From assembly GCA_947650365.1 (NCBI GenBank), contig OX393554.1, positions 33,846,704 to 33,910,703 of the forward strand: a stretch of DNA of 64,000 nt, given 5' to 3'. Positions 28,291 through 31,200 of this stretch are shown here, in pieces. Made by a program: the position numbers and the translations under genes. The stretch comes from Chamaelirium japonicum (Eukaryota; Streptophyta; Magnoliopsida; Liliales; Melanthiaceae). The notes under the pieces were generated by a model. It had not been told where the DNA came from and searched no databases. It saw nothing but the letters and a program-made list of their open reading frames with translations. How positions within the stretch are numbered: position 1 is the first letter of the stretch; each line of letters starts with the position of its first letter.

Positions 28291-31200
28291 ATGGGTAGGG
28301 GGAGGATAGAGATCAAGAAGATCGAGAACTCGACCAGCAGGCAGGTCACCTACTCGAAGAGGAGGGCGGGGATCATGAAGAAGGCCAACGAGCTCACCGT
28401 CCTCTGCGACGCCCAGGTGTCTCTCCTCATGTTCTCCAGCACCAAGAAGCTCTCCGAGTTCTGCAGCCCCTCCACCGAGTATGTATACCTGCTTCCTCCC
28501 TCCCTCCCTCCCTCCCCTCTCTTTTCTTCTTCTTTACCTCACTTATGTGCGTGATTGTTTGTGCCACCAGCACCAAGAGCATCCTCGACCGCTACCAGCA
28601 AGCCACGGGGATCAACGTGTGGAGCGCCCAATATGAGGCAGCAACCTCTCTCTCTCTCTCTCTCTCTCTCTCTCTCTCTCTCTCTCTCTCTCTCTCTCTC
28701 TCTCTCTCTCTCTCTCTCTCTCTCTCTCTCTCTCTCTCTATAGATGGTATCTAATGTGGGTTTTGTTTCTTTGGATGGATGGGAGTAGAAAATGATCTCT
28801 CGCTCTCTCTCTATATATATATATCTCTCTCTCTAGATGGTATCTAATGTGGGTTTTGTTTCTTTGGATGGATGGGAGTAGAAATTCTCTCTCTCTCTCT
28901 CTCTCTCTCTCTCTCTCTCTCTCTCTCTCTCTCTCTCTCTCTATAGATGGTATCTAATGTGGGTTTTGTTTCTTTGGATGGATGGGAGTAGAAAATGATC
29001 TCTCTCTCTCTCTCTCTCTCTCTCTCTCTCTCTCTCTCTCTCTCTCTCTCTCTCTCTCTCTCTAGATGGTATCTAATGTGGGTTTTGTTTCTTTGGATGG
29101 ATGGGAGTAGAAAATGAAAAATACTCTGAACCACTTGACGGAGATCAACCGCAACCTCCACAAGGAGATAAGGTTAGCTCAGACTCAACAATGGTTTTTG
29201 AATTTTTTTTTTTTCTTTTTGAGATTTTATGTGATTAAGTGTGACTGAGATGGAGTACCTTTCTGCATGATCGCTTCTCATCCTTGGCTTCTAATTAATC
29301 AGGCAGAGGATGGGGGGAGAGCTGGAGGGTTTGGACATAAAGGAGTTGCGCAGTCTTGAGCAAAATCTGGATGAGTCTTTGAAGCTCGTTCGTCAAAGAA
29401 AAGTGAGACCCCCATTCATCATCCCCTCCTCTCGATCTTTTTAATCCATTTGGATACTTGGTTGCTACTGCAATTGGGTTTCAATGATTCGGGCATGGGC
29501 CGAGCTCTGGCCCGAAAGCCTTCCATGGCTATCTCCGGTGGAGTTATTTGGCATTAATCGAGCTTGTTACCATATTTTTTTTTCTTATATTCTATAAATA
29601 TGCATGTTATTATTCTAAGCTATACTAAGATTTTCAATATATTGGGCCGGGTTCGAAGCCCAGGTTCGGCCTGTTTTGATTTTGGGCCTAAAATATAAGC
29701 TCAAGTCCATACATAATGCTTGGGATATAGGCCAATTCGTTTTGAATTGGTCGAGCCCAATCCGGCCTGATCCGGACTCGGGCCCAATGCCAACCCTAGG
29801 CGCGTGTTTAAATTTGGATCCAATTTTGAAGCATGAAGAATGGATGTTGTGATAAGTTTAAACACATGGCGCATTAGTATTGGCCGGTCATGCTACTGGT
29901 TACACAAGCCAATCAACAATTTTTTTCTCCAAAAAAAAAAAGGTCGATCTCATGAAGATTCAAACAATGTATCACATAGAAAGAATACCATATACCCTAA
30001 CGCAATACCGATTGAATTTGAATCACCTATTGTGCTATAATTTAGCCTCCGAGAAACTTGGCATTCTGCACATATTTTTGTAAAAATCTTTGAATTTTTT
30101 TAAAAAATTTATAATAGTGATGTGTACACATATTTAAAAAGAAAATGCTATTCAACATGCCTGTTTTCCATCTAGATAAGGCCATCCTGCCATGGCAGCT
30201 GATCATAGCCACCGGTTGCACCCAGACCCGATCGGTGAATTGCACTACGCCTAATTGGCAGGAAAAAAAGAAGTGTGATTAGGAACCCACAACAAGAAGG
30301 CCCAATTTTGAGCAAAATCTGGATGACTAAATAACAATTCTCATTCCAAAAACAAACATATCGATCATTCTTGTATGTTTGAAAATCCAGTAGTACTTGA
30401 TTAATTAGAAGTACTCCAATATGTATCATGGTGACAAATAAATCATTGAACAATATATGACCTTCCATGTACCACACTGCAATTGAACATTATTATAAAA
30501 AAAAAATTATGAGACTGATTAACTTTATAAAAAAGACTCCAATGCCCAGTCCAAACAATTATATATATCATAACAACATTCTGCCAAACATTCAACCGTT
30601 GTGTGTCCAATGGTAGAAAAATCTAAAAAATAAACCCTAAAGTCATCTTCAACAAGCAAATTATGATTAAATTATAATAACTAAATGATTTATTTATCTT
30701 ATATATATGAAAAGAGCTAACAAGTCCAATGTAGATTACACATTCTTTATGCAAGATAGGATTTAATGCATGCATGCAGTGATGGACCTAGGATTTTTCC
30801 CCTGGGGGCATAAACATTAAAAAGTAACTAGTGTCACTGCCTCGCATTGGCTTTTAAATGCCGACTAATAAGAACAATTTGATGCCTTCAATCATCTCTT
30901 AGAATATTCCCTCCCCATGAGGTTCAGCTAACTTAGCTCTAAACAAGATCGGAACGCGATCTTGTCTTGAATCTGTTATTCTTGCTTGCAACATTGTCCT
31001 TCTCATGACTCTTCAAAAATACTCTTTTCTACTACAGAATAGCAAAAGTAACTCTGGTAGTTTGTCTGCCTACTATCAAACCAACCCAGACAACACATCT
31101 CCACCTTACTGAATAGACCATGTGAATTCTATTAGAACCATGACACCATGTGTCACCTTTACAGCTCCACCTCTTACTGAATAACCACATCCCTTAGAGT

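Follow-up and report, generated by a model that had tools for sequence, protein, structure and literature searches.

How does a spliceosome find the end of an intron when that end is present four times over? The question is raised by the second intron of an intact AP3/DEF-type MADS gene on the plus strand of a 64-kb window (the whole stretch of DNA analyzed here). AP3-kind genes specify petals and stamens and have a usual exon layout. The coding part of this gene spans 28291-37316, and its seven exons (28291-28478, 28571-28637, 29111-29172, 29303-29402, 35338-35379, 37018-37062, and 37146-37316) join into an open frame of 224 aa. The protein combines a MADS domain with a K-box (Pfam SRF-TF, E 1.6e-23, and K-box, E 1.4e-14, within residues 1-139), aligns over residues 1-170 to Arabidopsis AP3 with no internal gap, the exon 2-exon 3 junction YE|KM included, and ends in a C-terminus that matches AP3 C-terminal peptides, whose motif is named paleoAP3. 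The assignment to the AP3 lineage, a probable one, rests on these matches to AP3 sequences. That all seven exons are open is as expected if correct mRNA is made in sufficient amount. As the first-pass annotation had it, the gene is of AP3 type and the interval 28638-29110 is exactly intron 2; it is 473 nt long and 72% pyrimidine, and the remaining introns measure 92, 130, 5935, 1638, and 83 nt. Upstream, about 180 bp from the start codon, CCAAAATAGC (28108-28117) is one base off the CArG-box pattern CC(A/T)6GG and could be a MADS autoregulation site.

Inside intron 2, a 49-bp core occurs in four exact copies (0 mismatches) that start at 28743, 28836, 28946, and 29065, at spacings of 93, 110, and 119 bp; the initial observation of a segment of about 50 bp present four times was correct, and the window holds no others. 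A 27-bp core probe, allowed up to three mismatches, found these 4 places only on both strands, and 4 matches were reached in 0 of 100 dinucleotide shuffles. A dispersed repeat was rejected because this probe found no further place in the 64-kb window, as was a known RNA element, Rfam giving no match to the window at the gathering score. The repeated segment had been described as ending in the acceptor; in fact, the unit crosses the splice junction, running from the end of the intron into 3-7 nt of exon 3. What has been duplicated is thus an intron-exon boundary. Copy 4 (29065-29117; core 29065-29113) is the junction itself, with its TAG ending at 29110 and exon 3 beginning at 29111; copies 1-3 are intronic. 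Copy 1 (28743-28795; core 28743-28791; TAG ending at 28788) and copy 3 (28946-28998; core 28946-28994; TAG ending at 28991) keep AAAATGA of exon 3 before CT resumes, and copy 2 (28836-28884, the core; TAG ending at 28881) keeps AAA. Only the acceptor at 29110, with the GC donor described below, gives a gap-free AP3 protein. The division into three decoys followed by CT and one copy followed by the true exon 3 was right. The long CT tract said to precede each copy is there, and pure, for copies 1 (28646-28739, 94 nt), 3 (28886-28942, 57 nt), and 4 (28999-29063, 65 nt), but not for copy 2, which follows a 47-nt spacer that also carries the remnant of exon 3, a single G, and a run of TA.

What, then, could tell the four ends apart? 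All four copies are complete 3' splice modules: the branch-site match CTAAT (at 28754, 28847, 28957, and 29076 in copies 1 to 4) lies 34 nt before the TAG, and a short pyrimidine run is present as well. CTAAT also lies 31 nt before a GAG, which forms a GAGTAG pair with the TAG in each copy; were the GAG of copy 4 the acceptor, an in-frame TAG stop would stand ahead of exon 3. The first-pass annotation credited all four copies with a pyrimidine tract and an AG. The run and the TAG are indeed present in each, but purine-rich GATGGATGGGAG comes after the run, so that pyrimidines account for only 48% of positions -24 to -3 at the four TAG sites, and the AGs in the intron number 13, not four: (i) a (CT)n-TAG or (CT)n-ATAG, (ii) a GAG, and (iii) a TAG in every copy, and a further AG close to the donor. 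As acceptors, the (CT)n-TAG sites that head the copies were rejected; they have 74-100% pyrimidine upstream but no YTRAY at 10-75 nt, and all four lead to 99 aa. Plant introns are described as using a YURAY branch site at 18-40 nt and first-AG scanning that begins at the branch site, not at the donor (PMC3017782). The expectation that scanning from the 5' side would meet three false acceptors first needs correction: each copy has its own CTAAT, and choice of the copy 4 branch site would leave copies 1-3 outside the scan altogether. At the four TAG sites the local sequence is the same and cannot separate decoy from true site. Ranking acceptors by hexamers (PMC12480690), a local rule, yields a tie for them; given this tie, the junctions used would show how much synthesis order, distance, and downstream exon context weigh in plant acceptor choice.

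With the local signals identical, context must decide. Pyrimidines make up 68, 94, and 88% of the 50 nt downstream of the decoys and 44% downstream of the true site, and only the true site has a downstream exon with its own GT donor; plant splicing is reported to respond to the contrast between intron and exon composition (PMC2682935). The predicted pre-mRNA fold does not set copy 4 clearly apart. Its AG is somewhat less paired (unpaired 0.35 vs 0.10-0.25 in the decoys), while neither its branch site (0.31 vs 0.22-0.29) nor its pyrimidine run (0.52 vs 0.29-0.85) is distinct. The best explanation, which we regard as probable, is that the array is a young passenger, a boundary array of the "mirage" type in a CT-rich intron, and that the last acceptor is mainly used with some leakage to the decoys. 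The spliceosome would mainly take the branch site and TAG of copy 4, favored because this copy alone precedes a pyrimidine-poor exon with its own donor, the decoys preceding intron-like CT. Also speaking against last-site use, decoys 1-3 are transcribed first with the same local signals, and a first-come rule would favor them; and the donor is weak, outscored by GT sites within the copies. A minority of transcripts would probably be spliced to a decoy and run into a premature stop, making the array at most a mild drain on AP3 output rather than a selected device. Should every transcript use the last site, the array would be no more than a harmless curiosity.

In the present sequence, use of decoys 1-3 as acceptors leads to premature stops after 100, 123, and 126 aa. 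Copies 1, 3, and 4 have stops in all three frames and copy 2 in two; decoy use truncates the protein because copy 4, retained in simple decoy transcripts, has a stop in each frame. It had been proposed that decoy use would insert CT-encoded residues or a frameshift; that the protein is harmed stands, but the proposal was too mild, all three decoys giving premature stops. Other routes were tried and rejected: use of ATG|GTATCT in copy 1 as a donor would add poly-Ser-Leu but, at the present CT number, shifts the frame; recursive splicing fails as the decoy junction GAG|AAAATG creates no new donor; and three cassette exons (51, 68, and 77 nt) that run to the GTATCT of the following copy would take out the start of copy 4, yet their products end early, at 100, 107, and 110 aa.

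Could such truncation be the purpose of the array? If decoy use were substantial, transcripts spliced to copies 1-3 would be dead ends and the decoy share would set the AP3 dose, a splicing brake that we think unlikely even though the decoys carry full 3' splice modules and splicing from the donor to decoy 1 would remove an intron of workable length (151 nt). Every simple decoy product is truncated, and none is rescued by a change in tract length: in simulations with the last CT tract varied from 0 to 59 units and the other tracts fixed, full length was obtained in 0 of 60 cases for each decoy (0/180 in total). PTB binds CU repeats, and CU-binding proteins of this kind could tune decoy use. 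The identity of the copies points to youth, not to long selection, and arrays of this kind in lancelets are reported to be harmless (PMC3087553, PMC3902484).

This type of array is already known from lancelets. There, mirage minisatellites occur in Adh3, the globins BflGb6 and BflGb9, and troponin C, along with boundary repeats of PGBD5, and regular splicing is reported undisturbed (PMC3087553, PMC3902484). Like the AP3 array, they consist of near-identical tandem copies of an intron-exon boundary inside a gene, splice signals included; the BflGb6 repeat combines an intron's 3' end with the first part of the exon that follows, and two haplotypes have 6 and 3 copies of it. The unit in AP3 intron 2 likewise spans an intron-exon boundary and stands in high-identity tandem copies in one gene. 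The AP3 array differs in that its host is a plant MADS gene, its exon part is only 3-7 nt, its units are joined by CT microsatellite, and its intron has a GC donor; moreover, the lancelet arrays are reported to leave splicing regular and to be unstable in length, whereas the AP3 array is known from the sequence of one assembly. A related single duplication is described in a potato RdRp gene (PMC4974935): there, too, a plant gene has a duplicated branch site, pyrimidine tract, 3' splice site, and exon start, but one duplication produced a new spliced intron (106 RNA-seq reads) and its copies differ at ten nucleotides, in contrast to the four copies here, which differ at none in the core and give no sign of a new intron. 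The (GTT)n repeat of Arabidopsis NTM1 and the (GAA)n repeat of IIL1 are also length-variable intronic simple repeats, one of them near an acceptor, that affect splicing or expression; they multiply no splice site, unlike the AP3 array, which multiplies an acceptor module (PMC12177298). A multi-copy boundary array in another plant was not found in the open-licence literature, nor was any title or abstract there on AP3 intron repeats or AP3 intron splicing; the AP3 array would carry this class of repeat from lancelets into a developmental gene of a plant.

The donor of intron 2 is weak. GT, GC, or AT donors from 28571 to 29100 were combined with acceptors, with introns of at least 57 nt, and ranked by match to Arabidopsis AP3. 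Among the 709 pairs, 39 gave full-length frames, and the best AP3 match (523; next 512) came from a GC donor, GAG|GCAGCA (28638-28643, plus strand), paired with the AG at 29110. The only GT pair among the best 15 of the 39 uses the donor at 28617, ranks 8th (476), and deletes seven residues, VWSAQYE. That the donor is probably GC rather than GT, as judged by protein match, was missed in the first-pass annotation. The donor consensus is MAG|GTRAGT; in a crude nine-position count against this sequence, the GC donor agrees at 5/9 positions even with C accepted at +2 and the other five donors of the gene agree at 6-9. Within each copy the two highest-scoring GT sites, AAT|GTGGGT (7/9) and ATG|GTATCT (6/9), exceed the GC donor in the same count.

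Do a poorly flanked GC donor and an array of acceptors add up to a failing intron? The allele would then be a hypomorph or a pseudogene in the making, with a paralogue perhaps backing it up. The low donor count and the loss of seven residues with the best GT alternative lean this way, but every one of the seven exons is open, the donor could contain a single-base assembly error, and GC-AG introns, at about 1.2% of plant introns, are in use (PMC6310983); this reading seems to us doubtful, more so than the brake.

How did four boundaries come to stand in one intron? The left flanks of copies 1-4 alternate (ATAG, CTAG, ATAG, CTAG); to the right, copies 1 and 3 are joined as AAAATGA|TCTCTC, copy 2 as AAA|TTCTC, and copy 4 runs into the exon. 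A 152-nt segment is present twice (28683-28834 and 28886-29037) at 95% identity. On the simplest reading, which the flanks suggest, one boundary duplication came first and duplication of a two-unit block second. An illegitimate join would have set the intron end and a few bases of exon 3 beside a CT tract, the resulting two-unit block would have been duplicated, and CT slippage would have set the spacer lengths. Unequal exchange between CT tracts, the origin suggested in the first-pass annotation, may account for how the array grew later. It does not explain the first duplication, whose join lies inside exon 3 (AAAATGA|TCTC), or the copy 2 join AAA|TTCTC; because CT flanked the unit on both sides only after the first step, such exchange cannot have begun the array. 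The absence of substitutions in the four cores sets a 95% age bound of 1.2, 2.4, or 5.9 My at 1.3e-8, 6.5e-9, or 2.6e-9 per site per year, respectively, with a star tree assumed, a bound that gene conversion would void. Copy identity makes the array probably young, but gene conversion or faulty assembly could also leave the copies identical. An assembly fault would mean fewer true copies and misjoined CT-rich reads; assembly through CT tracts of 57-94 nt is difficult, and one lancelet array was wrongly assembled in a draft genome, as PMC3087553 reports. Plain read duplication, however, would copy both junctions and spacers, and here both differ (AAAATGA|TCTC, AAA|TTCTC, and the exon); we give an artefact less credence than a weakened allele.

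Plant genes often have GA leaders, and CT introns are frequent in them too. This gene has a candidate for such a leader, a purine-rich (GA) stretch of 66 nt directly 5' of the start codon (28225-28290, plus strand) that is complementary to the CT tracts of intron 2. Its predicted duplex with 28638-28745, which holds tract 1, reaches -82.7 kcal/mol, those with the other spacers -50.7, -82.7, and -85.1, and pairing as strong was found in 2 of 400 random window segments. In a partition function over a 948-nt stretch, the predicted pairing of leader positions 28230-28290 averages 72% for tract 1 and 7% for the last tract. Pairing between the GA leader and CT tracts is a lead only. The array might give microsatellite-driven dose control of a floral identity gene: plants would differ in module number and CT lengths, and hence in the proportion of AP3 transcripts that decoy splicing removes, with GA leader/CT pairing perhaps tuning the outcome. 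This lies further down our scale than an artefact; if true, petal or stamen form could vary fast via unequal exchange. Least credible of all is that exons or introns are being born here, with decoy acceptors spliced to the ATG|GTATCT (6/9) or AAT|GTGGGT (7/9) of the next copy as cassette exons, much as a potato gene is reported to have gained an intron by boundary duplication (PMC4974935), for all three GTATCT cassettes end early, as given above, and GTATCT overlaps the branch-site match.

CT tracts are found in other introns of the window as well. Intron 6 of the AP3-type gene (37063-37145, 83 nt) is mostly a 55-nt CT tract from its 6th base, after CTG|GTTAG. A gene on the minus strand (48252-49260), which we read from its sequence as a B-box family member with two B-boxes, has a 133-nt intron (49071-48939) that opens CAG|GTCTCT with a long CT tract directly at the donor, and further CT runs precede the start codon of the gene. 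The sense-strand tract begins within the first 2-6 bases in AP3 intron 6 and the B-box intron and from the 9th base in AP3 intron 2. A CT bias in these three introns is suggestive, no more; one pattern search counted 14 CT/GA runs of at least 8 units in the window.

Elsewhere in the window, direct repeats of 1132 bp that are 99.8% identical (14612-15743 and 20763-21894) surround a 1347-aa frame on the minus strand (16303-20346); the element (14612-21894) looks young and, from a reading of the frame, Copia-like. Several arrays of an 86-bp unit with about 71-74% identity occupy 51730-58811, the largest with 29 copies (56327-58811) and with longer periods near 170 and 255 bp. Finally, a protein-kinase-like frame on the minus strand (12184-12951; HRDIKASNVLLD...DFGFAKL) probably belongs, by eye, to a receptor-like or cytoplasmic plant kinase.
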